Source: Bacteroidota bacterium
GTDB taxonomy: Bacteria; Bacteroidota; Bacteroidia; Flavobacteriales_D; Sanyastnellaceae
Assembly (NCBI GenBank): GCA_027593035.1
Contig: JAQCJQ010000013.1
Coordinates: 1-34,857, forward strand
DNA: 34,857 nt
Direction: 5' to 3'
The notes below the pieces were generated by a model, which was given only the letters and a program-made list of their open reading frames with translations, did no database searches and was not told the origin of the DNA. The translations under genes and the position numbers were made by a program. Below, piece by piece: positions 6,537 to 30,232 of the stretch (position 1 is the first letter of the stretch; each line of letters starts with the position of its first letter).

Positions 6537-8555
6537 CTAAGTTCCCAGCGCATAGGCTGCTTCCAGCCCTTCCAGGATAGCACGTTGAGCGTCCAATCCA
6601 CGCGCATTGCTCGCTCCGCCAACAACCTGTAGATTGACACCGCGACGAGTCAAGTCTTCGACGAGATCTTGACGGCTCTCTTGGCCAGCACACACGACGA
6701 CGTGATCCACTTCCAACGTACATGGATTGCCCGATTGAGTATAATGCAAGACACCGTTGTCCCATTTGTGGTATTCCACATCAGAATGGGTTTGAACCCC
6801 ACGGTCTTTCAATGTTTTTCGATGGATCCAACCCGTTGTCTTCCCGAGACCTCCCCCCACTTTGCCACTGGACCGTTGGAACAAGTGAATCTCCCTCTTT
6901 GACTTGCGGGATTCAGGTTTGAGGATCCCTCCTCGTGCCTCTAAGTCCTCGTCAATGCCCCAGGCCTTGGAGAAATCCCCATCTCCATCATGGGATAAGA
7001 AATCGGCCACATCAAACCCGATGCCACCAGCTCCAATGATCGCCACACGAAGGCCTACATCCACCTTTTCTTTGAGGACATCGATGTATCCTACGAATGC
7101 CTTTTGGTTTTCTGACCCCGGGATTTTGAATGGTCGTGGACGCACACCCGTTGCCAAAATGACGGCATCAAACTGACCGGTAAGTTCTTCTGCTGTAACG
7201 GATTGATCCAGATGAACCTCCACCCCAAATTTCACGAGCATGCTTTTGAAATAACGGAGTGTTTCATGGAATTCTTCCTTGCCAGGAATTTTCTTCGCCA
7301 GATTGAATTGTCCTCCGATTTCTGAGCTCTCATCAAACAATTCGACTCGATGTCCGAGTCTAGCGCATTCCGTTGCCGCACTCAGTCCAGCAGGCCCTGA
7401 ACCAACGACAGCAACGTGCAAAGGCTTGATGGCCTTGGCGTCCAGGGGCCATTTCGTTTCATGACTGGCGCGTGGATTGACCAAGCACGTTGCCACCTTT
7501 CGCTTGAATATGTGGTCCAAGCAGGCTTGGTTGCACCCAATGCACGTGTTGATTTCATTGGCTACGCTAGCTTCGGCTTTGTTGACAATCTCCGGATCAG
7601 CTAAAAATGGCCGGGCCATTGAAATCAAATCGGAAGCCCCGGACTGCAAGGCCGCTTCACAGGTTGCTGGATTGTTGAAACGATTGGTCGCTACAAGCGG
7701 TATGTCCACCGCTCCTTTGAGCTTTTTGGTGACGAAAGAAAAATGACCGCGTGGAACCGAGGTTGCGATGGTGGGAATCCGAGCCTCATGCCAACCGATT
7801 CCAGTATTGAGCACATTGGCACCGGCCTTCTCGATGGCTTTCGCCAGCAGGACGACTTCCTCCCAAGAGCTGCCGTTCGGAATCAAATCCAACATGCTCA
7901 ACCGGTACATGACCACGAAATCAGGACCGCAGGCTTCTCGAATTCCCCGGACAATCTCAAGGGGGAATTGCATGCGGTTTTCAAATGAGCCCCCCCAACG
8001 ATCGCTGCGGGTGTTGGTTGCTTCAACCAAAAACTGATTGATCAAATACCCTTCAGAACCCATGACTTCAACACCATCATATCCGGCGATTTGAGCCAAT
8101 TGTGCAGATTTAATGAAGGCTTTGATGGTTCGCTGTACACCTCTGTTGGAAAGGCTGCGGGGTTTGAAGCGGTTGATTGGAGCTTGAATGGCAGAGGGCC
8201 CTACGTTGAAAGGGTGGTAGCTGTAGCGTCCGCCATGCAGTATCTGCATGCAAATGCGTCCGCCCGCCTGGTGTACCGCATCTGTAATGACTTGGTGCTC
8301 ACGAGCGTGGTGCTTGCGTTGCATTCGCGCTCCTCCTGGCCCCAACACCCCTTCTCTGTTTGGCGAGATTCCGCCCGTAACAATGAGAGCAGCTCCTCCA
8401 GCAGCACGTTCAGCATAGAACCTCGCCAATGCTTGCATGCCGCCTTTTTGCTCTTCAAGCCCGGTATGCATGCTCCCCATGATGACCCGATTCGGAAGGG
8501 TCAAATGAGCGACCTGGATCGGTTCAAACAGATGCGGGTAAAGTGGATGTTTCAT
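6537..8555 (-). CDS. fadH: 2,4-dienoyl-CoA reductase, NADPH-dependent (FadH family)
   Basis: Reduces 2,4-dienoyl-CoA during beta-oxidation of unsaturated fatty acids, using FMN, a 4Fe-4S cluster and FAD. From ATG 8555 the protein has 672 residues, the same length as E. coli FadH. An old-yellow-enzyme TIM barrel carries probable catalytic Tyr170 (GSEGYLINQF) and His256 (GIGWHEARIPT). The cluster cysteines are Cys338, 341, 345 and 357 in CIGCNQACLDHIF and CLVNPRA. A FAD domain (GSGPAGL, 385-391) and an NADPH domain (GAGGIGFDVADFL) follow. A GTG at 8570 is an alternative start but would overlap the upstream stop; ATG 8555 follows that stop after one base. Related flavin oxidoreductases act on other enones, but motif spacing favours FadH. 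Confidence 0.9.
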   Translation of the reverse strand: MKHPLYPHLFEPIQVAHLTLPNRVIMGSMHTGLEEQKGGMQALARFYAERAAGGAALIVTGGISPNREGVLGPGGARMQRKHHAREHQVITDAVHQAGGRICMQILHGGRYSYHPFNVGPSAIQAPINRFKPRSLSNRGVQRTIKAFIKSAQLAQIAGYDGVEVMGSEGYLINQFLVEATNTRSDRWGGSFENRMQFPLEIVRGIREACGPDFVVMYRLSMLDLIPNGSSWEEVVLLAKAIEKAGANVLNTGIGWHEARIPTIATSVPRGHFSFVTKKLKGAVDIPLVATNRFNNPATCEAALQSGASDLISMARPFLADPEIVNKAEASVANEINTCIGCNQACLDHIFKRKVATCLVNPRASHETKWPLDAKAIKPLHVAVVGSGPAGLSAATECARLGHRVELFDESSEIGGQFNLAKKIPGKEEFHETLRYFKSMLVKFGVEVHLDQSVTAEELTGQFDAVILATGVRPRPFKIPGSENQKAFVGYIDVLKEKVDVGLRVAIIGAGGIGFDVADFLSHDGDGDFSKAWGIDEDLEARGGILKPESRKSKREIHLFQRSSGKVGGGLGKTTGWIHRKTLKDRGVQTHSDVEYHKWDNGVLHYTQSGNPCTLEVDHVVVCAGQESRQDLVEDLTRRGVNLQVVGGASNARGLDAQRAILEGLEAAYALGT

Positions 8556-8556
8556 G

Positions 8557-11500
8557 TCAATCGAAATCACGGTATTTGTCTACCAAATCATCACGACGAA
8601 TGGTATTGCGCAGATATTGATACAAGTAACGGGTACCATCATCACCCTTGAGCTCCTTTTTTTCTTTTTTGATGTCGGCAATCATGGTCAAGAAGGTCAA
8701 ATCAGGCGAAGAAACATTCAGTTTCCCAAGTTTGTATTCAAAGTAGTACCAATTGCTCTCATCTCCATGCAAATAGATGCGGAACGCATCACCGCTACGA
8801 CTTCGAATCAATTCAATTTTCCCCGGTATTTCTTGGAATACGATGTGTTTGCCCATCGTAACCAATCCGATTTTACCCGTTGACACAAACATCTCTTCAT
8901 TGTCATCCCAAACCAAGTCGACCTCATTGAAAACAAGGCTGTTTTGGAGCTTTTTCGGAACATTCTTGATTTGCCCAGTCATGGCAAGTTCATTCATGAG
9001 TTTCCCGCTCTTCTCCTGTCCGATCCAAGAATTGAGCGCCTGCAAATAATTGACCTCATTTAGCACCAAAGGCTCAGAAGAAAGCCACGACTGAATTTGC
9101 ATGGACATCCTTTCAAACAAATCGTCTTCAAAATGAAAGTCTAAACGAAAGGAGCCCTTCAGATGATGATTCCCTGAACCATCCTGGAAGAAGTCTCCTG
9201 AGAAATCTTGAGCGACTAAATTGAAATCCAATGGCATCTTCAGATCACCTTGACCTGTTAAATTGCATCGAATCGCGTCCAAATCGATTTGATTTCCGGG
9301 TGCGGATTTGTCTTCAAACTTTTCCCTTGTCGAAATGATGTAATGACCGTCTCGGTATCGAAGAGCCCCTTCAATTGACATCAACAACCTGTCATCGGGA
9401 TCGGACATCGGATCGAGGAATCCAGACTGCATGGTAAAGGGCGCTCTGGATGATGCCATCAAACCGTAAGCCAGAGGGTCTCCGTCCTGATCCTTGATGT
9501 CTTGATCGACCGGAATAGCCAATTCTAAGGGGTCAAGAAAGGACTCGAAGTGGATCCACGTGGCAAGGAACTGATCACAAGGCTTCAAGAGCTTCACGCC
9601 TCCGTCAAACCACAAGTGGGGTTCTGAGGAAGCCATCCGGATCGTCCCTGCAAACCCAAAGGCGGGACTCAAAGCAAATCCATCACGGGCCATGACCTGA
9701 CCTGTAGCGACTGTTTGGAAAGCTTCATCGACATAAATCGCGTCCATTTCAATGTAGGCGGTGTCACCCAATTCGTCACGATAACGATAGACGCCATCGC
9801 CATCAAAAGACATGCGTCCATGAATCAGCAGGTTCGCTCGATCGATGTAATGCTGTCGAGTAACATCGTTGGCCACGAGTCCGGCATTGTTCAATTTGTC
9901 AATCCGAGCGCCCTTTCGAATGACGACGACACCGCTATCCGGATAAATACGGGCATCGGCAAGGGCCAATTCTTTCACTTGCTGGCAGCGAAGGAAATCG
10001 TCTTGAATGCGATAGGTCGCACGGATGCTCAAGAAATGCAGTGAATCCTGCTCTGGATGCACTGAAATGAAATTCGACACGGTACGATCCTCGCTGAAAT
10101 CAAAAGGAAGACTATCAATTTGTCGATCTGAAATCAAATCGACTTCATCTCGGTCCATAAACCAACGAAAGCGATCCATATAACAGATGTACTGCTGGAT
10201 GGGCAGTTCGATTTTAGTTTCTCCAGAATTGGGCATGAAGTCGCCAATGCGTTCATCAAAATCAACGCGACATCGCACATCATGCGTTTGAAACGCCGCA
10301 ATGCCTCCCGACCGACCGGATACCTCAAAAGCAGATGAATCCGAAAGAATCTGTCGTTCTTCAAAAGTGAAGTCATGGGAGGATAAAGAAGATTCAGAAA
10401 AGCTGAATTCACCCGCCCCTTTTAAGCCTGCGTTCGTTAGCGTCGTTTGACCTTCAAGCCATACATCTTCGCCAAAAAACATCAAGCGCTCTTGGCTCGA
10501 TTGCATTTCAAGTTCTTCCGACAGCGGCCTGTACACAACATAGCCTCCATGGTTCTCTATGCTTGGGACATTGGCTTCATGACTGCTTCGATTGCTCATC
10601 CAATTCACTGCTCCAATGGTCGAGTCGGGGAGAAAAACGAAGTTGTCGCTTCTGACTTCTGCGGTCAAGAATTCGATTCGACCAGCTCCTTGCAATCCAC
10701 TTCCGTTCAGGGTGACCCCATTGGAAAACCGTGCGCCACTGTCATAAACAAACTGTCCCTCAGGAGGTGTGCTCGTTTGGAGTCCAAGGTGCAAGTCTTC
10801 CATGATTCTCAACGGATCATGGAGTTCCTCTAAAATACCAGCCGAAACCAAGGTCCCATTGAAAACAAGCGATTCAGAAGTCAAATCGTCCAGCGCGTTC
10901 AAGACAAAAGGGTCTACTGCGTAATAGAAATCGTCACGCTCGTATGCTCCGCTGTACAACGTCGGTTGATCAAAATAGACAAAGCTGGGGTCAACGCTTG
11001 TGAAAATGGGGTATTCGGGATGATTTGTTGACCAGATTCCAGATCGATTGTTGGGATGATCAATGGCCAAGGTTCCAGACACTTCTTCCAGTAGGCTACG
11101 AACACGCTTTTTGATCGGCCGGCCTCTAGAATCGTAATTTTCAGGGTCATTGATGGACATTCCAATGCCGGCGATTTGATTCAACTGAATGGAAAAGGAA
11201 TCGTAATCAAACACAAAGCCATCCCCTTTCATGTCCAAGTTCCCAGCAACAAGCCGTCCATTGAAGGTGAAATCCCTATTTTCCGAAAGCACCACTTCTC
11301 CATTCTGCGGGTAAATTTTGACGTTCTGTGAGTCACTCAAGAACATGTAATCCACCCCATGAATTGACAGAAATCCGTTCAGCAAACTCCATTCAGCATT
11401 TTCACCCGATTTTGGAGTTGACTGCCATTGCAGCACGTCGTAATCCTCTCGGCCACTGTAGTTTCTCATGTTGGAGAAGACCTTAGACTGAACTTCACAC

Positions 11501-13041
11501 CAACGGGATTCCGGATCAAAATAAACGAATCCAGCATTGGCCAGGTTGAGGAGCTCTACCCGAGCTTGCACCTCGCTCATGCGAATGAAGTGCGCGTAAT
11601 CTTCACTTGAAAACGCACGGCGACCATTTTCTTTGCAGAAATTCTTCACTCGAGTCAATGGATGCACATCGCCAATCCCCTGCATTTGAAGAAAGGACTC
11701 ACGTTTAAAAAAATCATCGCTTTCAAACACACCTGTGATGGAGCTTCCTCCAAACACAGAGCCTATGATAATCTTGGTCTCCTTGCGATTCCAAGTGAAG
11801 CCATCAACGTCCCATGATATAGCGTGGTAATTGTCTTTGAATGACTGCTGTCCGAGGCCTTCGGTTTGTCGCATCACACGCAAAAAACCGGATTCGTCGT
11901 CGAGACGCACACTCACATCCGGGTGACTGATGGTGTCCGTTCGAAAGAATATGTTCATCCGACTGTGTGCCGTTGAAAACCCTTTAGGGGTGAATATGAA
12001 TTCTGCCGCGCTGAACACCATGAAGATTGTATCATTGCGGAAAACCTCCACTTTAGCAAGCAAATCAGGCGTCCCAATTCCCGATATGCGCGATCCCTTA
12101 ATCGCCATGCCCCCTTCATAGACGAGATCTTGGAAAAGCCCATCCAAACGAATGATCTCTGCATCGCTACTGAACCGAGGGTACGACTTGCTATCCATGT
12201 CAGCGTGGTTCTGCAATTTGGTTGTCACCTTGCCATTGAGCGGTTCCGTTATGAGATTGGAATGCCAGGTGGCATCATCACAAGTGAACCCGCTGCTTTT
12301 CAATTTCAATTCGAACGGCCCCAACTCCGCGAAATAACCGAGCGAGTCAAAAGCGGTTCCAATCCAAGGCACTTTGCCTCCAGACAAGGCCAGACGATCC
12401 GAGGTGAGATCCCATATTCCACTCGTCCTTTCCACTTCAATTCGATCGTTGTCAGCGACACCAATCAAACGGGCATTCTGGAATGTGAGCATGGGGATGG
12501 AATCAACGCGCAACTCAAATGGCGCATCTTCAATGGCCCATGTTCCACTAGAAGAATTGTACAGTATTTGCTCGCGAATCAAGCCAGGACTCAAGCTGAG
12601 AAATGGCCCTAAATCACGCTTCCATTTCTTGGTGTTCAGCATGGCATCTACGACATGATGCCAGGAATGCCACAATTCAGGGTCGTTCCGGTTGATGAGT
12701 TGTTCTACAGATAGCAGATAATCCAAAAGCCCTTTGGACATGGAGATCCTATTCTCCTGGAAAGCATTGCAAAAAAGGGCGATTGAATCCAGCTGGGATG
12801 AACGCAATTCTGGGCTACAGAGCAAAGGTGCTAGCGTCCTTTTCACCCATTTAGCTTGTTCCCCATTCGATTTAGCCAGCTCATCTTCTAGCTGCTCCCC
12901 CAGTCGCTCGCAATTCGCTTCATAATACTGCCCAATACTTTGCGCAGGCATCCATCCAATGCACAGCAGAAAGCAGAAAATACGCAAGCGGCTTAACACA
13001 TCGATCGAAGTTGTGAATGAGCGCTTGGTGGGACCTTCCAT
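8557..13041 (-). CDS. Giant exported beta-rich repeat protein of unknown function
   Basis: A 1494-residue protein that I cannot assign to a named family. Residues 1-38 form a signal peptide (LRIFCFLLCIGWMPAQSIGQ), preceded by a basic n-region. A helical stretch follows to about residue 160. Beyond that the protein is mostly alternating polar and hydrophobic beta strands. Three segments look like diverged copies of one unit: MKGDGFVFDYDSFSI (about 600), LQGAGRIEFLTAEVRSDNFV (about 777) and LKGAGEFSFSESSLSSHDFT (about 872). MSFDGDGVYRYRDE near 1063 is weaker. The pattern G-x-G-x-hydrophobic-x-F, then x-S-x-D-F-x-F, recalls beta-jellyroll or solenoid envelope proteins such as AsmA/TamB or OstA types, but this is only a resemblance. 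There is no later membrane segment and no T9SS tail, so a periplasmic or outer-membrane-associated location is inferred. It lies 38 bases after prmA and 1 base before fadH. Confidence 0.85.
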   Translation of the reverse strand: MEGPTKRSFTTSIDVLSRLRIFCFLLCIGWMPAQSIGQYYEANCERLGEQLEDELAKSNGEQAKWVKRTLAPLLCSPELRSSQLDSIALFCNAFQENRISMSKGLLDYLLSVEQLINRNDPELWHSWHHVVDAMLNTKKWKRDLGPFLSLSPGLIREQILYNSSSGTWAIEDAPFELRVDSIPMLTFQNARLIGVADNDRIEVERTSGIWDLTSDRLALSGGKVPWIGTAFDSLGYFAELGPFELKLKSSGFTCDDATWHSNLITEPLNGKVTTKLQNHADMDSKSYPRFSSDAEIIRLDGLFQDLVYEGGMAIKGSRISGIGTPDLLAKVEVFRNDTIFMVFSAAEFIFTPKGFSTAHSRMNIFFRTDTISHPDVSVRLDDESGFLRVMRQTEGLGQQSFKDNYHAISWDVDGFTWNRKETKIIIGSVFGGSSITGVFESDDFFKRESFLQMQGIGDVHPLTRVKNFCKENGRRAFSSEDYAHFIRMSEVQARVELLNLANAGFVYFDPESRWCEVQSKVFSNMRNYSGREDYDVLQWQSTPKSGENAEWSLLNGFLSIHGVDYMFLSDSQNVKIYPQNGEVVLSENRDFTFNGRLVAGNLDMKGDGFVFDYDSFSIQLNQIAGIGMSINDPENYDSRGRPIKKRVRSLLEEVSGTLAIDHPNNRSGIWSTNHPEYPIFTSVDPSFVYFDQPTLYSGAYERDDFYYAVDPFVLNALDDLTSESLVFNGTLVSAGILEELHDPLRIMEDLHLGLQTSTPPEGQFVYDSGARFSNGVTLNGSGLQGAGRIEFLTAEVRSDNFVFLPDSTIGAVNWMSNRSSHEANVPSIENHGGYVVYRPLSEELEMQSSQERLMFFGEDVWLEGQTTLTNAGLKGAGEFSFSESSLSSHDFTFEERQILSDSSAFEVSGRSGGIAAFQTHDVRCRVDFDERIGDFMPNSGETKIELPIQQYICYMDRFRWFMDRDEVDLISDRQIDSLPFDFSEDRTVSNFISVHPEQDSLHFLSIRATYRIQDDFLRCQQVKELALADARIYPDSGVVVIRKGARIDKLNNAGLVANDVTRQHYIDRANLLIHGRMSFDGDGVYRYRDELGDTAYIEMDAIYVDEAFQTVATGQVMARDGFALSPAFGFAGTIRMASSEPHLWFDGGVKLLKPCDQFLATWIHFESFLDPLELAIPVDQDIKDQDGDPLAYGLMASSRAPFTMQSGFLDPMSDPDDRLLMSIEGALRYRDGHYIISTREKFEDKSAPGNQIDLDAIRCNLTGQGDLKMPLDFNLVAQDFSGDFFQDGSGNHHLKGSFRLDFHFEDDLFERMSMQIQSWLSSEPLVLNEVNYLQALNSWIGQEKSGKLMNELAMTGQIKNVPKKLQNSLVFNEVDLVWDDNEEMFVSTGKIGLVTMGKHIVFQEIPGKIELIRSRSGDAFRIYLHGDESNWYYFEYKLGKLNVSSPDLTFLTMIADIKKEKKELKGDDGTRYLYQYLRNTIRRDDLVDKYRDFD

Positions 13042-13079: not shown

Positions 13080-13946
13080 TCAATGGGTTGACTTTTCCCA
13101 CAATGCACAACACCAGCCTTCCCGGTCCGTACTGGAAAGGAAATTCCATCCCAATTTGTGGGATTGAGCTCTCAACTGCTCAAGGTCTGAGGGAAAAAAG
13201 CCACTCATCAAAATGCGCGATTGAGGTTTCAATACGTGGTCATAGGCCCGCATATCCGCGAGCAAGACATTGCGATTGATGTTGGCGAGTAACAAGTCGA
13301 ACCGATTGTTCCAAGGGCTGAGCAGACCCGCATCCCCAAGAATTACTTCACCTGGAGCCGTTTCGGGATCCAATCCATTGAGCTGGTAGTTGGATCTCGT
13401 ATTGTCAAACGACCAAGTATCGATGTCAATGGCCACAACTTCTGATGCGCTTAAGAGGTGTCCCGCTATGGCTAACACACCAGTGCCACAACCCATGTCC
13501 AAAATGGACTTCCCCTCTACTGACTCGTCCAGAAGCCTCCGAAGCATTTGCCAAGTGGTGGCATGATGACCCGTGCCAAAGGACATTTGCGGCTGGATGA
13601 CCACATCCAATCCACTTGTTGGCTTGGGATGAAAGGGAGCCCGCATGTGGGCCAATCCATCTACATCAATGGCCGGATAATCCGCCTCCCAAGCGGCGTT
13701 CCAATTCTCTGATTCGACGGCTTCAAATTCAAACGCAATCTCCGCAATGCCCTTCAAATCCGACATGATTTCATCGCAAGCTTCGCGGTCAATCTCCGTC
13801 TCTTTTCCATAGGCAACCATTCCCTCATCAACATTTTCAAACATATCAAATCCGCATGTTTCCAACCAGGCCACGGCAATCTCACGAGCCGGTAGCAACG
13901 GCTTGATGGTCAACGTGAGTTTTAGAAATGTAGGGTTTGAAGTCAT
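13080..13946 (-). CDS. prmA: Ribosomal protein L11 methyltransferase
   Basis: Methylates lysines and the N-terminus of ribosomal protein L11 with S-adenosylmethionine. The 288-residue protein has the family signature QMSFGTGHHATT (120-131), the SAM-binding loop ILDMGCGTGVLAI (148-160), the acidic VVAIDIDTWS strand end and the catalytic-loop motif ANINRNVL. The N-terminal 100 residues form the L11-recognition domain (ESENWNAAWEADY is typical). The start ATG 13946 abuts the tpiA stop with no base between (TAAATG), indicating one transcript. The 1494-residue gene follows after 38 bases. Confidence 0.94.
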   Translation of the reverse strand: MTSNPTFLKLTLTIKPLLPAREIAVAWLETCGFDMFENVDEGMVAYGKETEIDREACDEIMSDLKGIAEIAFEFEAVESENWNAAWEADYPAIDVDGLAHMRAPFHPKPTSGLDVVIQPQMSFGTGHHATTWQMLRRLLDESVEGKSILDMGCGTGVLAIAGHLLSASEVVAIDIDTWSFDNTRSNYQLNGLDPETAPGEVILGDAGLLSPWNNRFDLLLANINRNVLLADMRAYDHVLKPQSRILMSGFFPSDLEQLRAQSHKLGWNFLSSTDREGWCCALWEKSTH

Positions 13947-14711
13947 TTATTGCGCTTTGGAAATCGCTTCATTCGACGCCTTGACAATGGCCAAGAAATC
14001 CGTTGCATTCAATGCGGCACCTCCGATGAGTCCTCCATTGACATCTGGTTGCATGAAGATCTCCAAAGCATTGGAAGGCTTGCAACTGCCACCATAAAGA
14101 ATCCGAGTGGAGTCTGCGATGGATTGGTTAAAGAGCGCCGTCAAATGCTGGCGAATCGCGGCATGCATTTCTTGCTCAGCAGAAGCCGTTCGCCCTGTTC
14201 CAATAGCCCAGATCGGCTCATAGGCGACGACGACACGGTCCATCTCTTCGGACGAGACGTCACTGAGAGCATGAGATAACTGAGCCAGTACCTTTTCGAA
14301 ATGCCGACCAGCATCCCGCTCATCGAGATTCTCACCGCAACAAAGGATAGCCATCAAACCCGCATCCAGTGTTTGCTTCATCTTGGCGGCCACAGCGGCA
14401 TTCGTCTCGCCGAAAGATTCGCGACGCTCTGAGTGTCCAATGAGTACTGATTTGACTCCGATTGACTTCAACATAGAAGCCGTGTACTCTCCCGTGTGCG
14501 CTCCCTCTCCAGATGCACTGCATTGCTGACTCGACAGAGCAACAAATTCGTTACAACGGGGACGCAAGGCAGCGAGGTAAGGCGATGGCGGAGCGACCAT
14601 AACCTCTGTATGACCGGCTGATTGCATGCCTTCAACGACCTCGACCATCAACTTATCGGCTTCATCCCACAATTTGTTGCACTTCCAGTTCCCTGTTACG
14701 ATGTTCCGCAT
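13947..14711 (-). CDS. tpiA: Triosephosphate isomerase
   Basis: Interconverts dihydroxyacetone phosphate and glyceraldehyde 3-phosphate in glycolysis and gluconeogenesis. The 254-residue protein has the complete active site: Asn8 and Lys10 in GNWKCN, His93 in IGHSERR, Glu165 in AYEPIWAIGTGRTAS including the mobile loop 6, and phosphate-binding GGS (207-209) and the Gly pair near 230. GNWKCN has Cys where most enzymes have Met. The frame is open upstream to 14777, but the extra 22 residues are unlike any TIM, so ATG 14711 is the start. It is the first gene of a likely four-gene operon with prmA, the giant gene and fadH, and is divergent from recQ across 72 bases. Confidence 0.96.
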   Translation of the reverse strand: MRNIVTGNWKCNKLWDEADKLMVEVVEGMQSAGHTEVMVAPPSPYLAALRPRCNEFVALSSQQCSASGEGAHTGEYTASMLKSIGVKSVLIGHSERRESFGETNAAVAAKMKQTLDAGLMAILCCGENLDERDAGRHFEKVLAQLSHALSDVSSEEMDRVVVAYEPIWAIGTGRTASAEQEMHAAIRQHLTALFNQSIADSTRILYGGSCKPSNALEIFMQPDVNGGLIGGAALNATDFLAIVKASNEAISKAQ

Positions 14712-14783
14712 GACATTTGTTTCTCGATAAGGGTGCAAAGTTCGCCCATCAAACGTGCAAGAAAAACTAGCCGTCACTTTTTA

Positions 14784-21555: not shown

Positions 21556-23622
21556 ATGACATCCACACCCCATCATTTAGAGCATTATTTGTGCGATCAA
21601 TGGGTTCCTTCTACAAAGCAGCACCAAGATTCTACAGCGCTGCTGCATGCCATACATGGTAGTGAAGTAGCTCGATTGAATGAGGACGCGGTAGATGTAG
21701 AATCCGCCATGCGCTACGCTCGTATGATCGGAAATGCGAATCTGCGGGTACTGACGTTCCAAGAAAGGGGCCGCATGTTGAAGGCGCTGGCCCTTCATCT
21801 TCATAGCAAGAAAGAGGAATTTTATTCCTTGAGCTGGGCGACGGGAGCGACACGCAACGACTCGTGGATTGATATCGAAGGTGGGATTGGCAATTTATTT
21901 AGCTACGCGAGTCTTCGCAAGCAATTCGGGGACACCCCGTTCGCATTGGATGGCGCAGGAATACCGTTGAGCAAGGCAGGCACTTTTGTGGGACATCATA
22001 TTCTGGTTCCTAAACAAGGAGTTGCCATCCACATCAACGCATTCAACTTCCCTGTTTGGGGCATGCTTGAAAAAGTGGCCGTGAATTGGTTGGCGGGTGT
22101 ACCGGCGATTGTTAAACCTGCTTCAGCCACAAGTTATTTGACCGAAGCCGTCGTTCGTGAAATCATTGCGTCCAACATCCTTCCCCCGGGGGCCATTCAA
22201 TTGATCTGTGGACCCGCTCGCAACATTTTAGATTATGTGGACGAACGGGACGTGGTGACATTCACCGGTTCTGCGGAAACGGGACGCAAGCTCAAGTCAA
22301 ACCCCCGGATATTAGAGAATTCGGTTCCTTTTAATATGGAGGCCGACTCCCTCAATTCCGCCATACTCGGTCCACATGTACAGCCCGGGGATCCTGAATT
22401 TGATTTGTTTGTCAAAGAAGTGCGCAAAGAAATGACTGTGAAATGCGGTCAGAAGTGCACCGCTGTGCGACGGGTGTTTGTACCGAAGCATTTGATGGAC
22501 CCGGTGCAAGAAGCGTTAATTGCAGCATTGAAGAAGACAACCCTAGGCGACCCGCAAGCCGAAGGCGTTCGCATGGGGGCCTTAGTCAATCACGCTCAAA
22601 GGGAGGAGGTCCTTCAAAAAATAGAAGCGTTGGAAAGCGAGGCCCATTGTGTTTATCGTGACACTTCACCACCTGTTGGCGCCTCCAACGATTTGGGTGC
22701 GTTTATTGGCCCCACCTTACTGAGAATGGATGATCCTCTGAAGGCTAAGCGCTGTCATGACGTTGAAGCCTTTGGCCCCGTCAGCACCTTGATGCCTTAC
22801 AGTGATCTTGGTGAGGCCGTTGAATTGGCCAACCTGGGAAAGGGATCCTTATGCTGCTCTTTTGTTAGCCACAACCAGGATGATGTGCGCTCATTCGTGC
22901 TTGAAGCCGCACCGATGCACGGCCGCATTTTGGTCTTAGACCGCGACTGCTCCAAAGAATCCACCGGGCACGGCTCTCCCCTGCCCTTGCTTGTACACGG
23001 GGGACCAGGGCGTGCCGGCGGAGGTGAGGAAATGGGAGGCATGCGGGGTGTTCATCATTATATGCAACGAACAGCGATCCAAGGTTCTCCATCGATGGTG
23101 AGCGCAATCACGAAATCGTACCAGCCCGGCGGAGCTCAGGTCGAAGCCAACCCACACTTGTTTCAGCAGCATTTTGAAGACCTGCAAATTGGGCATACAG
23201 TGACCACGGCCAAGCATACGGTTACCGAGGCCGACATTGTGAATTTCGCCAATGTCAGTGGCGATCACTTTTATGCTCATGTTGATGAGACCAGTTTGGA
23301 GGGCACGATATTCACCGGAAGGGTCGCCCATGGCTACTACCTATTAAGTAAAGCCGCAGGACTTTTTGTGGATCCGAAGAAGGGGCCTGTTCTGTTGAAC
23401 TATGGTGTCGAATCAGCGCGCTTCACGAAACCGGTGTATCCGGGCGCGACTGTTGGCGTTCGTTTGACCGTAAAGGAGAAAATTGCGCAAGAAAAACGCA
23501 GTCCTGAAGACATCGCAAAAGGCATCGTAAAATTTTATGTCGAAATGCACGATGAAACCGGTGAAAGTGTCGCGATCGCGACCATTCTGACCATGGTGAA
23601 AATGCGAAATCAAGAGGATTGA
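21556..23622 (+). CDS. paaZ: PaaZ-type bifunctional aldehyde dehydrogenase/enoyl-CoA hydratase
   Basis: In phenylacetate catabolism PaaZ opens the oxepin-CoA ring with its MaoC-like hydratase domain and oxidises the resulting semialdehyde with its NADP-dependent dehydrogenase domain. The 688-residue protein (E. coli PaaZ 681) has both. The dehydrogenase, about 1-525, shows INAFNFPVWG (Asn164), FTGSAETG, Glu262 in NMEADSLNSAIL and nucleophile Cys301 in GQKCTAVRR. The MaoC domain, about 535-685, shows NVSGDHFYAHVDE with Asp570 and His575, and RVAHGYYLLSKAAGL. All key residues are present. It opens an operon whose next gene starts at the A of its TGA stop. No other paa gene is in the window, so a role with another CoA thioester is possible. 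Confidence 0.93.
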   Translation: MTSTPHHLEHYLCDQWVPSTKQHQDSTALLHAIHGSEVARLNEDAVDVESAMRYARMIGNANLRVLTFQERGRMLKALALHLHSKKEEFYSLSWATGATRNDSWIDIEGGIGNLFSYASLRKQFGDTPFALDGAGIPLSKAGTFVGHHILVPKQGVAIHINAFNFPVWGMLEKVAVNWLAGVPAIVKPASATSYLTEAVVREIIASNILPPGAIQLICGPARNILDYVDERDVVTFTGSAETGRKLKSNPRILENSVPFNMEADSLNSAILGPHVQPGDPEFDLFVKEVRKEMTVKCGQKCTAVRRVFVPKHLMDPVQEALIAALKKTTLGDPQAEGVRMGALVNHAQREEVLQKIEALESEAHCVYRDTSPPVGASNDLGAFIGPTLLRMDDPLKAKRCHDVEAFGPVSTLMPYSDLGEAVELANLGKGSLCCSFVSHNQDDVRSFVLEAAPMHGRILVLDRDCSKESTGHGSPLPLLVHGGPGRAGGGEEMGGMRGVHHYMQRTAIQGSPSMVSAITKSYQPGGAQVEANPHLFQQHFEDLQIGHTVTTAKHTVTEADIVNFANVSGDHFYAHVDETSLEGTIFTGRVAHGYYLLSKAAGLFVDPKKGPVLLNYGVESARFTKPVYPGATVGVRLTVKEKIAQEKRSPEDIAKGIVKFYVEMHDETGESVAIATILTMVKMRNQED

Positions 23623-25142
23623 TGGGATTGGTATCATTCGAACGTCTTGTTTCCTTGCTTCCCCGTTTGGCTTTACTCCTCATCTGCCTTGAGCTCTGCA
23701 TCGCAGGACATGCGCAAACAAGGGACACAGCCGAACTGGTTGCAGCCGATTATTTAAGCGGCGAGTCCATTCAAAAAGATTTAGACTCCTTGAAAATCTG
23801 GGTGGAATCCATGCACCCAGCCCCCTTCGCACGTTGTTCGGAGCAAGATTGGAATGAAGCCTATCTAGAGGCTTCTGAGCTCTACAATGGTGGAGGAACG
23901 CGCTTAGCCGCAGCACAAGTTTTTGCTCGCTTGACCAATGTCATGAAAGACAGCCACACATGCGTTTCTTTGAAAGCACTTTCAGATGATCTGCGGGAAT
24001 TGCATGGCCGTTTGCCTTTTGAGATCACCACCATACAGAACCGCATTTACATCGCGAATGATGCTGTTGAAACCATCGAAAAAGGAACTGAAATTCGAGG
24101 GGTCAACGATCAGTCGGCCCGGATGGTTCTCGGCATGGCACTGCAATTGGTTCCGCTTGAGGGCGACGCTCCGATTGCCCGTCTGCGTTTGGCGGAAAAG
24201 TTCTGGAATGACCTGGGTCCGATGATGATCCAGTCCACTCCTATTGACTCCATCATCATCCAACTTACAGACAGCGACGAGAAGAATTTCGAGCAAGCCG
24301 TGGCCATCAACCAATCCAAATCCTTCCTCGAAAGCAGATCCGATAAAAGCCCGATCAACTGGGAGTTCATCCAGCGCGACGGTGCAGAGTTTGCGCATCT
24401 GACGATCACGTCCTTTCAATCCCAACACAATCGAGCATTCCAGCGTTCATTGCGTCGCGGGTTCAAGCGGTTAAACCGACTCCAGGACGGCGACCGCAAG
24501 CACCGTCATGGTCTGATCCTGGATATACGAGGCAACGCTGGAGGCAACGTAGCCTTGATGGAAATGCTCCTGCCGTATTTAACCAACAGCCCTGTATACC
24601 TTCCTCATGCGGTAGCCATTCGACAAAGCGCGTACACGAAATCGCAATATCCTCGGAATCAAATCAACTGGCCGATTCGCAAAAGCAGCAGCCTCTATGA
24701 ACTCACTCGTTTTTCTAAAGCACTGCGGAGCACTCCTATAGGGGTCACAGAAGAAATCCCGTTCGACATCCCCTCACAACCTCACAAGCGCTTACAATAC
24801 TTAGGGGAAGTGGCTTTGTTGATGGATGGGCTGTCTGCTTCGGCCTCGGTGGCTTTTGCCAGCTGGTTCATCCAAAGTGGCCGAGGAGAAACCTTTGGCG
24901 AACCTTCCATGGGCAGCGCTTCGGGGACGTTTGGCAATCCTGTTAAGCGTGTTTTACCGCACACAGGATTGACCGTCAACATTGCGACCGCTCAGTATTT
25001 TAGCTCCGCGTCCCATGTATGGGATTCGAAACCCATTCTGCCAGACCATCCCATTTCTTGGAAGGCCTCTGACATTCAAAATGGAAACGACCCCGTTTTT
25101 GAGGCGGCCCTTCAATGGCTTCAAAATGTTCAACTCCAATGA
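23622..25142 (+). CDS. S41-family peptidase, exported
   Basis: A 506-residue protein with a signal peptide (LALLLICLELCIAGHAQ) that places it in the envelope or outside. The S41 (tail-specific protease-like) fold is indicated by the substrate-binding strand LILDIRGNAGGN (298-309) and the nucleophile region LLMDGLSASASVAFA, with Ser405 or Ser407 as catalytic serine, followed by FGEPSMGSASGTFGN. The last motif has Glu where CtpA/Tsp enzymes carry the catalytic Lys; many Bacteroidota S41 proteins share this GEP form, so a Ser/His/Glu-type mechanism is more likely. No clear PDZ domain separates the N-terminal helical part from the core. The start ATG 23622 shares its A with the paaZ stop (TGATG), and the gene overlaps the GH92 gene by four bases. 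The substrate is unknown. Confidence 0.87.
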   Translation: MGLVSFERLVSLLPRLALLLICLELCIAGHAQTRDTAELVAADYLSGESIQKDLDSLKIWVESMHPAPFARCSEQDWNEAYLEASELYNGGGTRLAAAQVFARLTNVMKDSHTCVSLKALSDDLRELHGRLPFEITTIQNRIYIANDAVETIEKGTEIRGVNDQSARMVLGMALQLVPLEGDAPIARLRLAEKFWNDLGPMMIQSTPIDSIIIQLTDSDEKNFEQAVAINQSKSFLESRSDKSPINWEFIQRDGAEFAHLTITSFQSQHNRAFQRSLRRGFKRLNRLQDGDRKHRHGLILDIRGNAGGNVALMEMLLPYLTNSPVYLPHAVAIRQSAYTKSQYPRNQINWPIRKSSSLYELTRFSKALRSTPIGVTEEIPFDIPSQPHKRLQYLGEVALLMDGLSASASVAFASWFIQSGRGETFGEPSMGSASGTFGNPVKRVLPHTGLTVNIATAQYFSSASHVWDSKPILPDHPISWKASDIQNGNDPVFEAALQWLQNVQLQ

Positions 25143-28100
25143 TTCAATTCGCACGTTGCTCAGTCCGTATAGCGCTCTTCATTTTCATCGCAGTCAACAT
25201 ACTTGGCTGTTCAGATAGGAGCATGCCTGAATCCTTGCATGCGACAGTCAATCCTTTCATTGGCACCGGAGGACACGGTCACACGTACCCCGGTGCAACG
25301 GTTCCATTCGGCATGGTGCAATTGAGTCCTGATTCCCGCCTTGACGGATGGGATGGATGTGGAGGTTATCATTATAGCGACTCCATGATCTATGGCTTCT
25401 CGCATACCCACTTGCAGGGAACGGGTGTGTCCGATTATGGCGACATCTTGATCATGCCTTGCACGCAGTTTCGAGCAGACGCTGAAACGTGGGCCGATCG
25501 ATACAAAAGCCGCTTCGACCACGAGCAAGAAAACGCACACGCTGGCTATTACAATGTCCAGCTCCAGGATCATGGCGTTGATGCCGAATTGACCACCACG
25601 GAGCGGGTCGGTATCCATCGCTATCGATTGAATGAACCGGACACCCTCACCTTGATCATAGACCTTCAACATCGCGACGAGTTGATTCACTATAGCATCG
25701 AACCACTCAATGATTCCACCTTGGTTGGCCATCGATTGTCAGACAATTGGGCTCGGGAACAGCATGTGTACTTCGCCATGCGATTCGACCAATCTTTTGA
25801 ATGGCAAGACCAACTTTCAGAAATTCAAATAACCGACACGTTGGATGACGGTACCCTCCTACAAACTGTGGAGTACGTGCCCGTTTTCGCTTGTGATTTT
25901 GGAGTCATCGAGGAGTTGAATGTTCGACTCGCTTTGAGTTTTGTTGATATCGACGGGGCTTTGAACAACCTCACAGAAGAGGCTCCACGATCTGACTTTG
26001 ATTTTTATCGTCAACAAGCCGAAGCCTTATGGGAGGAGCAGCTTCAAACTGTCACGGTTGATGGTGGTACTGCAGACGAACAAGCCGTTTTTTATACGGC
26101 GCTTTATCACAGCTTCACCACGCCCAATGTGGCTTCCGACGTGGACGGAAGGTATCGAGGAACAGATTTGAGCATCCACCAACTGACACCAGAAGAAGGA
26201 CTGCATTACACGGTCTTTTCACTGTGGGATACCTTCAGGGCATTGCATCCCTTATTGAACTGGCTGGAACCTCAACGGTCTCGTGACTTTGTTCGCACGA
26301 TGTTGCGCATGCATGAGCACGGCGGTCAACTGCCTGTGTGGGAACTGGCCGGCAATTACACCGGCTGCATGATTGGCTACCACAGTGTCCCCGTGATTCA
26401 AGACGCCGTAAGTTGGGGCATTGATGGATTCGATCAAGAACAGGCATTGAAGGCCATGTTGCAAGCTGCAGACAGTGCTCATCTTGGACTCCCCTCATAC
26501 CAAGCATACGGCTACATTCCCTTGGATGAAGAGCACGAATCGGTGTCCAAAACATTGGAGTATGCCTATGACGACGCATGCATCGCTGCGTTTGCTCGGC
26601 AGATGCCTTCAGCACGATCCGGAGATGATCAAGTCGTAAAACGCTTCACACAACGGGCGCTCTTCTATCGGAATTTATTCAATTCATCGACCAACTTCAT
26701 CCAGCCAAAACGCGGAGGAGCCTGGTTGGAGGACTTTGAGCCGCGCGAAGTCAACTTCAATTACACGGAAGCCAATGGTTGGCAATACAATTTCTTCACG
26801 CCACAAGACATCAACGGCCACATAGCACTGATGGGCGGCGACTCGGTCTATTTCCAGATGCTAGAACGCATGTTTACCTCGAGCAGTGAAACGACCGGAC
26901 GGCAACAACCTGACATCACAGGGATGATTGGACAATATGCCCATGGCAATGAGCCTAGCCACCACATGGCTTACCTCTACCCTTTTGTTGGCAACACCTC
27001 CCGCACTGCTGAATTGGTGAGGCAGATTCGAAATGAACTGTATCCCAATGCACCCGATGGATTGTCTGGCAATGAGGACTGCGGACAAATGAGTGCTTGG
27101 TATGTCTGGAGTGCATTGGGCCTGTATCCCGTTACGCCTGGATCCAACCAAATCATCGCCGGTATCCCTGCTTTTGAAACAGCAACGGTCCAACCGCGTC
27201 CATTCACAGGTCACAAGGCCAATCCCTTGACCATTGACTTCAAAAACCCAGGCCATTACATTGCTGGCTGGACACTGAATGGGACGAAAAAAACAACGAG
27301 CTGGATATCCAAGGTTGACCTAAAGGAAGGGGGGACATTGCAGTTTCATGGCGCTGAGCATGCCAGCGAATTTGGAGCGGACCGGGGCAATCGGCCTACA
27401 GAAAAGCTGGATGACTCTGATTTTGTAAGCGTCCCAGTGATTCATGCCCCACGCACTTTCCAGTCTCTGCAAACCTTTGTCACCATTACCAACTCGGATC
27501 CTGAGGTGATTACGAAATTCCGAGTCCTCAACTTGGATCAAAGTGAGAGCAATGCACCGTGGCAGGTTTATAGGCAGCCCATTGAATTGAAAGCAAGCCA
27601 GCGCATCGAAGCCTTCAGCGAGAATATCCTTGGCAACATATCAGCCCAAGTGTCTCATCGGGTTCGTCAAATAAGCCACCGCCATGCCTTGCAGCTGAGC
27701 GAACCTTTCGATCCCCAGTATGCTGCAGGAGGAGCCCAAGCATTGATCGACGGGATTCATGGCAATGCCCACTATCAAACAGGTGATTGGCAAGGGTTTT
27801 GGGGCAAGGATGTTACCGCAACGGTCGATTTGGGCGAATCCAAGATGATTCAGACCATGTCCATGGGTGCCTTGCGCGACATTCGGCCGTGGATTTTCCT
27901 TCCCCGATCAGTCACCTTCTCTTGCTCACGAGATGGCGTGAATTGGGAAACCATCGAAACCGTGTCGCATCGTCTGTCGGATGAGGATGACGTCAATGTG
28001 GCGCACCGATTTGTTTCCAATCAATCCCGTGAAGCGCGGTATTGGCGTGCAGAAGTCCAACATTATGGAGACCTCCCTGCTGGACACCTCGGAGCGGGCA

Positions 28101-28153
28101 ATCCAAGCTGGGTATTTCTAGATGAGTTCGAACTATCCGTGAAGTCACCCTGA
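25139..28153 (+). CDS. GH92 alpha-mannosidase family lipoprotein with C-terminal binding domain
   Basis: Exo-acting, calcium-dependent alpha-mannosidase of glycoside hydrolase family 92, acting on mannan or N-glycan-like glycans. The 1004-residue protein has a lipoprotein signal ending ILGC (Cys24). The GH92 domain runs from VNPFIGTGGHGHTYPGATVP (from 37) through YGFSHTHLQGTGVSDYGDI (85-103), ELAGNYTGCMIGYHS (from 402), HGNEPSHHMAYLYPF (from about 602) and GNEDCGQMSAWYVWSALGLY (from 644), which include the acid and base residues. A chitobiase-like C-terminal segment (about 775-850) and a galactose-binding, F5/8 type C-like domain (about 870-1000, ALIDGIHGNAHYQTGDWQGF onwards) follow. It starts by ATGA overlap with the S41 gene. 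No SusC/SusD pair is nearby, unlike most glycan-utilisation loci. Confidence 0.93.
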   Translation: MIQFARCSVRIALFIFIAVNILGCSDRSMPESLHATVNPFIGTGGHGHTYPGATVPFGMVQLSPDSRLDGWDGCGGYHYSDSMIYGFSHTHLQGTGVSDYGDILIMPCTQFRADAETWADRYKSRFDHEQENAHAGYYNVQLQDHGVDAELTTTERVGIHRYRLNEPDTLTLIIDLQHRDELIHYSIEPLNDSTLVGHRLSDNWAREQHVYFAMRFDQSFEWQDQLSEIQITDTLDDGTLLQTVEYVPVFACDFGVIEELNVRLALSFVDIDGALNNLTEEAPRSDFDFYRQQAEALWEEQLQTVTVDGGTADEQAVFYTALYHSFTTPNVASDVDGRYRGTDLSIHQLTPEEGLHYTVFSLWDTFRALHPLLNWLEPQRSRDFVRTMLRMHEHGGQLPVWELAGNYTGCMIGYHSVPVIQDAVSWGIDGFDQEQALKAMLQAADSAHLGLPSYQAYGYIPLDEEHESVSKTLEYAYDDACIAAFARQMPSARSGDDQVVKRFTQRALFYRNLFNSSTNFIQPKRGGAWLEDFEPREVNFNYTEANGWQYNFFTPQDINGHIALMGGDSVYFQMLERMFTSSSETTGRQQPDITGMIGQYAHGNEPSHHMAYLYPFVGNTSRTAELVRQIRNELYPNAPDGLSGNEDCGQMSAWYVWSALGLYPVTPGSNQIIAGIPAFETATVQPRPFTGHKANPLTIDFKNPGHYIAGWTLNGTKKTTSWISKVDLKEGGTLQFHGAEHASEFGADRGNRPTEKLDDSDFVSVPVIHAPRTFQSLQTFVTITNSDPEVITKFRVLNLDQSESNAPWQVYRQPIELKASQRIEAFSENILGNISAQVSHRVRQISHRHALQLSEPFDPQYAAGGAQALIDGIHGNAHYQTGDWQGFWGKDVTATVDLGESKMIQTMSMGALRDIRPWIFLPRSVTFSCSRDGVNWETIETVSHRLSDEDDVNVAHRFVSNQSREARYWRAEVQHYGDLPAGHLGAGNPSWVFLDEFELSVKSP

Positions 28154-29352: not shown

Positions 29353-30232
29353 AGTGAGACATTGCGAGAACAGAGCGCTTCGCTTCCGGTAAAATATCAG
29401 GAAACAATTGCCAACCATGCAAGGCATTGTCCTCTTCTCGCCACACGACCTCGATGGACTCAGCGATGAGCAGGTCTCGGAACAAGCAGGCATCCGGATA
29501 CAGATACTCGGCAGTAGAAGTTTCGATCATGGTGGGCGGAAAACCGTCAAAAGAGCCCAAAACGGGAGATGTGGCTGCCTGATTGGAGTCAGCCCCAGCT
29601 AAATAGTGTGTCGTGTATTCAAGCATGTCAAGCCGACCGAAGGGACTCCAAGCATTCGAGTTGGTACGACTGCTCATGGAACTTGACCGCAAGTCCAACC
29701 ATGGGGATAGCAATATCAGCCCTTTAATTTGTTCACGTTGACTCGCTTCCAACCGTTGCATCATCGAGACGGCCAGGTTGCCACCTGCTGAATCGGCTAG
29801 GACATACACAGAATCAAATTCACTCTCGAAAACGTTCCATAGCGCCTCAAGCGCTTCCAAAGCGGCAGGATAAGGTGATTCTGGCGCCAAAGGGTATTCC
29901 GGGATCCAAACCTCACACCCCGTTTCTTTCGTCAACGCGCTGGCGATGGCTCGGTGGGTTCTGGCGGAACCAAAGGCAAACCCCCCTCCATGCACAAAAA
30001 AAACACCTGTCTTGGGTTCGGTGCGTTTCAAACGCAACCGAGCCATTTGCAGGCCTTCGCTTTCCTCATATGAAAAGTGGACATCAGCCGGTCCCGGATA
30101 CAGCATAGCCAAAGAGTCCAATGCCAATCGAATTTGCACGGGAGTCAAACCCACGACATCCCGTCGCAAAAAGCGCCCAAGACTATGCGTAGTGCTAATA
30201 AATCGAGGCGGAAGATTCCAAAGCGGCTTCAT
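29303..30232 (-). CDS. Alpha/beta hydrolase, HSL-type (family IV) esterase
   Basis: A carboxylesterase or lipase-like enzyme of 309 residues acting on short-chain esters. The oxyanion-hole motif HGGG is at 81-84, the nucleophile Ser148 in VLADSAGGNL, the acid probably Glu242 in STAEYLYPD (Asp in most relatives), and His272 in ALHGW. There is no obvious signal peptide, so it is probably cytoplasmic. The start ATG overlaps the stop of the M14 gene as ATGA, so the two are probably co-translated. The family fold appears to end near residue 295; the last 14 residues (TRAPVALTKRPMLG) are those encoded opposite the aminotransferase C-terminus. Confidence 0.88.
   Translation of the reverse strand: MKPLWNLPPRFISTTHSLGRFLRRDVVGLTPVQIRLALDSLAMLYPGPADVHFSYEESEGLQMARLRLKRTEPKTGVFFVHGGGFAFGSARTHRAIASALTKETGCEVWIPEYPLAPESPYPAALEALEALWNVFESEFDSVYVLADSAGGNLAVSMMQRLEASQREQIKGLILLSPWLDLRSSSMSSRTNSNAWSPFGRLDMLEYTTHYLAGADSNQAATSPVLGSFDGFPPTMIETSTAEYLYPDACLFRDLLIAESIEVVWREEDNALHGWQLFPDILPEAKRSVLAMSHFMTRAPVALTKRPMLG

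Follow-up and report, generated by a model that had tools for sequence, protein, structure and literature searches.

An undescribed exported protein family of Bacteroidia with predicted antiparallel beta regions and a winged-helix-like insert

Results

An exported protein outside known families

The stretch of DNA analyzed here, which we call the window, comprises 34,857 nucleotides of contig JAQCJQ010000013.1 (assembly GCA_027593035.1) from a member of the Bacteroidota, and it encodes an exported protein of 1494 residues that we refer to as X (P0001 for the copy in the window). The gene occupies positions 8557..13041, with its ATG at 13041 and its stop codon at 8557-8559; an initial annotation made from the sequence alone gave these coordinates and this length correctly, and we add that the gene, like all features of X described below, lies on the minus strand. 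X is 1473-1599 residues long in 36 of 40 loci and 1675-1857 residues long in the remaining four. One homologue (locus L006 in genome G010) carries a single in-frame TAG and is either a broken gene or a sequencing error.

Neither Pfam (at E≤1) nor NCBIfam (at E≤5) contains a family that matches P0001, and a phmmer search against the PDB returned three matches, all at E 0.07 or worse. When 29 members were scanned, Pfam gave weak, scattered matches to 12 families, each in at most two members (best E 0.0057), and NCBIfam gave weak matches to six families in one member each. The earlier statement that X has no recognizable family therefore holds, with no confident profile match of P0001 to a characterized family in either collection. 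As judged from these searches, X represents an undescribed family that is covered by no Pfam, NCBIfam or PDB family, and among open-licence papers we recognized none that treats it.

Export signal

Residues 1-37 (12931..13041) form a predicted signal peptide, with likely cleavage by signal peptidase I (SPI) before Q34 or Q38, glutamine being present at both positions, as in the Q-rule for SPI substrates of Bacteroidetes (PMC10653852, in the part of that source used here). An N-terminal hydrophobic segment is found in 200 of 207 family members, and in 149 of these 200 it is followed within 20 residues by a small-x-small-Q motif; in the same windows the next most common residues in the place of Q are F (61) and then A (36), and 214 of 4000 random control windows from the mature part of X show the Q pattern. 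Restricting the count to the first small-x-small match, a site that often still lies within the hydrophobic stretch, leaves Q as the most common following residue, in 48 of 198 cases. A lipobox is present in 3 of 200 members, which argues against a lipoprotein, and the prevalence of Q-rule sites argues at the motif level against an uncleaved inner-membrane anchor. By hydropathy, transmembrane-like windows in P0001 are confined to residues 12-21. Both the signal peptide and the lack of a later membrane segment proposed in the initial annotation are thus borne out; the family motifs support a Sec/SPI signal, and we infer a soluble periplasmic location.

Domain architecture and repeats

The signal peptide is followed by a helical N-terminal domain (residues 38-165; 12547..12930), indicated by a beta-to-helix hydrophobic moment ratio of 0.61 over residues 36-165 and by helices in a low-confidence model, in agreement with the helical N-terminal part recognized earlier. 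The moment ratio is 1.28 in the first beta region (about residues 166-455; 11677..12546), 1.28-1.76 over residues 165-455 and 540-1290, and 1.03 over a mixed alpha/beta C-terminal part (residues 1290-1494; 8560..9174). By these moments the chain is mostly beta after residue 165, as had been claimed for more than 1300 residues, but this excludes the mixed end and a winged-helix-like insert at residues 458-535. Among 30 divergent members, invariant residues are dispersed along the chain; many are Gly, and the polar ones include H373, D533, D535, Y613, Y700, D749 and D1029.

Two parts of the chain vary between genome families. In f20 and f21 (L042, L040, L043, L037), a long insert at columns about 244-385 of the family profile A1, which was built from 29 members, separates the helical head from the first beta region, and in f20 this insert is Ala/Pro/Lys-rich. 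The C-terminal motif is conserved within f1, where it takes the form RNDFVDRFREFD (A1 columns about 2000-2013); several members of other genome families have, in its stead, a charged Lys/Glu tail with Gly-Phe at the end. This terminal motif could possibly be a docking peptide.

HHalign self-comparison over 496 pairs of family windows revealed two repeat pairs. The copies of repeat A lie at residues about 757-836 (10534..10773) and about 847-926 (10264..10503); their core match, 756-809 against 846-899, is the best of all window pairs (P 96.2%, E 2.6e-9) and extends into 774-836 against 864-925 (P 94.5%). Repeat B, missed in the initial annotation, pairs residues about 548-591 (11269..11400) with residues about 1007-1047 (9901..10023), on a match of 547-590 to 1006-1046 (P 94.8%). 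At least three related copies had been proposed, near residues 600, 777 and 872. The latter two correspond to repeat A, but this self-comparison lends the copy near 600 no support as a third member, since windows starting at 504 and 544 match those at 664 and 704 with P of just 7.5-9.4%.

Coevolution and structure prediction

Coevolution was analyzed in an alignment of 207 rows (effective number 168) at separations of at least 15 residues, shorter ones being inflated by the diagonal. At separations of 15-45 and a threshold of 11, we counted 29 antiparallel ladders where 20 permutations gave a mean of 11.35 and at most 18, and 8 parallel ladders where 11.6 were expected. The pattern holds at a threshold of 12.5 (antiparallel 14 versus 3.75; parallel 3 versus 4.15), and at 9.5 a small antiparallel excess remains (52 versus 34.85, null maximum 46). 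Consecutive ladders at 1032-1055, 1051-1068, 1068-1084, 1096-1119, 1111-1137, 1132-1147 and 1146-1166 give a predicted meander of antiparallel strand pairs over residues about 1032-1166 (9544..9948). Since an antiparallel excess is present and a parallel excess is not, a parallel beta-helix is unlikely to be the main fold of X, which would be compatible with a groove, sandwich, barrel or propeller.

Two AlphaFold models were made from five-row alignments (A4 and A5, the window protein with L031-L034). Their mean predicted local distance difference test (pLDDT) scores are 29.7 and 33.2, and a Foldseek search with the second model gave 1257 matches at a cutoff of E≤10, of which none reached E≤0.001. 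Structure prediction and structural search thus yielded the order of elements in the winged-helix block, for which alone the models were used, but neither a good overall model nor a significant structural match. The beta fold is predicted from hydrophobic moments and coevolution, and is unproven because of the low model confidence (pLDDT 30-33).

A winged-helix-like insert

Between the first beta region and the repeats lies a domain that the initial annotation did not report, at residues about 458-535 (11437..11670). Profile A6, built on residues 452-538 of 53 diverse members, finds as its best PDB matches 3cta (E 7.3e-4), the MarR protein 3jw4 (0.003), 6ep3 (0.0052) and the TFE structure 1q1h (0.0089), followed by Lrs14-like 6cmv and PadR 5x11. 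Counting 3cta and 6ep3, which we take to be helix-turn-helix (HTH)/winged-helix folds, the six best are all HTH or winged-helix proteins by name or known fold, and non-HTH proteins such as NCS-1 stand lower among the 35 matches. Pfam gave weak matches to the 53 member segments, many yet not all of them HTH (the best, to Tfb5, at E 0.00041 in one member), and none to the window protein's own segment 452-538. In the otherwise poor AlphaFold model this is the best block (block pLDDT up to 64), with the order helix-strand-helix-helix-strand-strand, and among the 50 Foldseek matches listed of 1257 nearly all, at E 0.01-0.15, belong to winged-helix regulators, as judged by name or known fold.

Winged-helix folds normally bind DNA or other nucleic acids. 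In X, the charge of the presumed recognition helix averages -0.58 over 151 members, being -1 or lower in 60% and at least +1 in 17%, so that the helix generally lacks the basic character of a DNA-binding regulator, and the export signal speaks against a cytoplasmic location. Profile matches, model order, structural matches and helix charge together make a winged-helix fold likely for this insert and DNA binding by it unlikely. A search of open-licence papers turned up no periplasmic, secreted or extracellular winged helix; among the matches listed for a looser query, most concerned transmembrane regulators with cytoplasmic winged helices.

Comparison with envelope protein families

The initial annotation suggested that X might be an envelope component of the AsmA/TamB or Lpt type. 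We collected these families from related genomes (OstA_2 in 15/15, TamB in 15/15, AsmA in 11/15) and aligned 16 TamB rows (C-terminal part only), 15 OstA_2 rows and 11 of 16 AsmA loci; the genome of the window has its own TamB, OstA_2 and AsmA matches, separate from X. In HHalign, X reaches at most 2.6% with AsmA (residues 740-960, E 0.017), 1.3% with TamB and 0.8% with OstA_2. As a positive control, TamB against AsmA gives 71% (E 3.6e-5); OstA_2 against AsmA and TamB against OstA_2 each give 0.2%. Residues 740-960 score 0.1-0.3% with three controls, namely PrmA, triosephosphate isomerase (TIM) and an unrelated 2100-residue neighbor, and over all segments of X no control scores above 5.7%, the value for TIM against the helical head. 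Pfam likewise finds no OstA match in P0001 and none among the 29 members. The proposed membership is thus without support from homology, and with no convincing profile signal we assign X to none of AsmA, TamB and OstA_2. Because the AsmA score exceeds the same-segment controls, a very remote link, or a shared fold, stays conceivable.

No Pfam or NCBIfam model of a type IX secretion system (T9SS) C-terminal sorting domain matches P0001, and none so named occurs among the weak matches of the 29 members, in accordance with the absence of a T9SS tail noted earlier. A rule tying the presence of X to T9SS was rejected: SprA_N is found in all 42 chosen genomes with X and also in 18 of 22 without it. 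The four genomes lacking SprA (G287, G295, G653, G061) all lack X, and represent too few lineages for a conclusion.

Distribution and inheritance

In the window's own genome X occurs in one place only, and most of the genomes listed likewise have one match; those with two or three include cases of one gene split over contigs (for example, G019). A single-sequence search found X in 51 of 60 relatives. With profile A1, X is present in 235 of 245 genomes of its order (all at least 90% complete) and in 309 of 396 genomes, from 153 of 196 genera, in a sample of its class, among them the 1.7 Mb genome G781. In a sample of the phylum it was found in just 11 of 296 genomes, the same 11 by profile and by single sequence. 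The class and phylum samples were evidently drawn in different ways, and our guess is that the latter is richer in genome families lacking X. An undescribed exported beta-repeat protein, as the initial annotation had envisaged, is supported, in a family broader than had been guessed. A scan of viral contigs found no relative.

X is widespread in many genome families and missing from others. Of the 87 class-sample misses, 20 are listed, with f14, f15, f16, f17 and f22 accounting for 15, f19 for two, and f9, f90 and f103 for one each (265 of the 285 phylum-sample misses are unlisted); many or some members of f9 and f19 do have X. Among PDB chains, the nearest to the ribosomal protein uL4 of an f17 genome is 7jil (E 3.6e-88; next 5.4e-64), presumably from Flavobacterium johnsoniae, and the nearest to that of an f22 genome is 9i5t (E 1.4e-79; next 4.7e-68).

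Across 26 loci, pairwise identities of X correlate with those of PrmA (r 0.73) and TIM (0.585), comparable to the 0.616 between PrmA and TIM, and neither correlation of X was reached in 999 permutations. These correlations fit an old, vertically inherited gene that has been lost repeatedly. X of the window genome shares 42-44% identity with most of its relatives in the genus, 39% with one of them and 73-74% with the closest, and 30-32% at order level. The corresponding values are 31-36% for TamB (67% in the closest, 51% in a partial row; order level 18-26%) and 38-39% for OstA_2 (63% in the closest; order level 21-23%), so that X is the better conserved across similar genome sets, which overlap but differ between the three proteins.

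Genomic neighborhood

Immediately upstream of X on the same strand lie the genes for the ribosomal protein L11 methyltransferase PrmA (13080..13946, minus; PF06325, E 2.5e-38) and TIM (13947..14777, minus; PF00121, E 2.8e-82). PrmA is kept upstream in most loci: of 40 loci, 33 encode it no more than seven genes from X, and in 32 it is the immediate same-strand upstream gene (in locus L062 two small frames separate the two); TIM is equally close in 26 of the 40. Of 40 further loci from the class, 27 have PrmA immediately upstream of X, and the stop-to-stop frames of the two are separated there by -83 to 291 bases. At PrmA loci in 20 of 22 genomes without X, the X profile finds nothing within 1.5 kb flanks, and in the same flanks we saw no replacement for X beside PrmA. 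By eye, the genes after PrmA in such genomes include PlsY-like (L311), Mpl-like (L312, L316, L319), RecJ-like (L321, L322), ClpS-like (L318) and SH3-like exported (L308, L309) ones.

At its 3' end, X overlaps by 14 bases (8557-8570) a frame for an NADH:flavin oxidoreductase/FAD fusion (6537-8570, minus), a neighbor in 11 of 40 loci, every one of them from genome family f1. In other genome families of the order (L065-L077), a large protein of about 1800-2400 residues with a TPR-like start by eye (cluster 3) is often encoded downstream of X, and in some loci PlsY intervenes after X. Farther off in the window are ordinary genes for an aldehyde dehydrogenase-MaoC fusion (21556-23622, plus), a GH92 glycosidase (25115-28153, plus) and an M14 carboxypeptidase (30229-32058, minus), along with a 227-residue protein (1785-2468, minus) that has no Pfam family at E 1e-5 and is common to four other loci (cluster 18).

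Discussion

Sequence comparisons support X as a family of exported, conserved and vertically inherited proteins with a helical head, antiparallel beta stretches, two repeat pairs and a winged-helix insert. We propose, with a probability of roughly 0.45, that X is a soluble periplasmic housekeeping protein of the envelope, scaffold- or chaperone-like, whose winged helix docks a protein partner. As an extended sheet or groove, the beta part would hold, guide or space a client between the membranes, perhaps an outer-membrane protein, a lipid or a glycan precursor, and the winged helix and helical head would dock protein partners rather than DNA. Both the function in envelope assembly or maintenance and the docking role of the winged helix are inferred. 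Since some lineages manage without X, it would be a core yet replaceable factor.

Several observations weigh against this proposal. Both AlphaFold models are unreliable (pLDDT 29.7 and 33.2), and at separations of 46-120 residues neither antiparallel nor parallel ladders are in excess. By a crude hydropathy test, 12 of 146 members have a transmembrane-like window after residue 60, and the choice of the periplasm over the surface or the extracellular space rests solely on the absence of known sorting signals. X is also absent from 87 of 396 class-sample and 285 of 296 phylum-sample genomes, and its conserved neighbors, PrmA and TIM, are cytosolic enzymes that are uninformative about a role in the envelope.

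The same size, beta content and repeats would suit a soluble lipid- or protein-conducting groove, similar to AsmA/TamB or an Lpt bridge, not detectably homologous to either, that carries hydrophobic cargo across the periplasm. Such grooves and bridges are expected to show consecutive antiparallel strands, and these are what we find, without a parallel excess; the match of residues 740-960 to AsmA above its controls points the same way. The antiparallel ladders would also fit the beta-taco described in the part of PMC12045153 used here, with both models too unreliable to bear on this fold, and are compatible with an AsmA- or Lpt-like mode of working. That match is, however, far below the one between TamB and AsmA themselves, TamB, OstA_2 and AsmA matches coexist with X in one genome, and every AsmA-like protein of E. 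coli has an inner-membrane anchor (PMC12045153, same part), whereas X appears to be cleaved by SPI. On balance we regard a conducting groove as doubtful.

Being large, beta-rich, repetitive and exported, X could also be a secreted or cell-surface structural protein, such as a matrix, S-layer-like or adhesive component, which we consider unlikely given the lack of a T9SS C-terminal domain model, the scarcity of lipoboxes and the narrow range of lengths. Adhesins are variable, and X is vertically inherited and near-universal in its order. The invariant polar residues would be accounted for if X were a large enzyme of the periplasm or a carbohydrate-active protein, its winged helix being non-catalytic; the dispersal of the invariant residues along the chain, the many glycines among these, and the lack of a convincing Pfam or NCBIfam catalytic family for 29 members, which gave scattered weak matches, make this very unlikely. 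Least credible is a signaling protein tethered to the inner membrane whose winged helix, true to its fold, binds DNA: the domain lies more than 400 residues past the signal peptide, P0001 shows no membrane-like window in the intervening part, and the domain should therefore be outside the cytoplasm, and its recognition helix is basic in few members.

A gene of 4.5 kb that is maintained in most of the class sample, down to a genome of 1.7 Mb, probably serves an important task in the envelope, although neither Pfam nor NCBIfam has a model for it. In the samples used here, genome families f17 and f22, with their uL4 nearest to 7jil and 9i5t, lack X, so that studies of such strains may have passed it by. 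A survey of signature proteins of the phylum drew its queries from few genomes, those named in the part of the source used here including P. gingivalis, B. fragilis, B. thetaiotaomicron and G. forsetii (PMC1887533); lineages like these may lack X, a possible reason why it stayed unseen. We tentatively entertain a stronger version, in which X is an unseen, class-wide part of a periplasmic machine, a giant antiparallel beta scaffold with a winged helix docking outside the cytoplasm, overlooked since the relatives of the usual laboratory species lack it. The questions raised are which envelope function X performs in most of these bacteria, and how those without it cope.

X can be set beside several known systems. 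With the OstA_2 and Lpt-type proteins (PF13100), which are jellyrolls, it shares an exported, predicted beta character, and differs in that its HHalign scores against them stay at or below 0.8% and that a separate OstA_2 protein is encoded in the same genome. AsmA-like proteins, including TamB, are large as well and occur in the same genomes, and they would have in common with X an antiparallel beta structure and a position external to the inner membrane; those of E. coli are inner-membrane-anchored beta-tacos in the cited part of PMC12045153, whereas X looks SPI-cleaved, has a putative winged helix and a helical head, and lacks convincing profile similarity to them. BamG and BamH of the Bacteroidota beta-barrel assembly machinery (BAM), compared by description only, are envelope factors typical of the same part of the tree and, in the part of the source used here, universally conserved across the phylum (PMC12611786). 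X, unlike these two, is missing from many genomes. Finally, the winged-helix domains of MarR, IclR, GntR and TFE proteins share the likely fold of residues about 458-535, but in X this insert sits in an exported protein and its recognition helix is mostly acidic or neutral, so that a fold normally used on DNA is predicted here inside an otherwise beta-sheet protein of the envelope.

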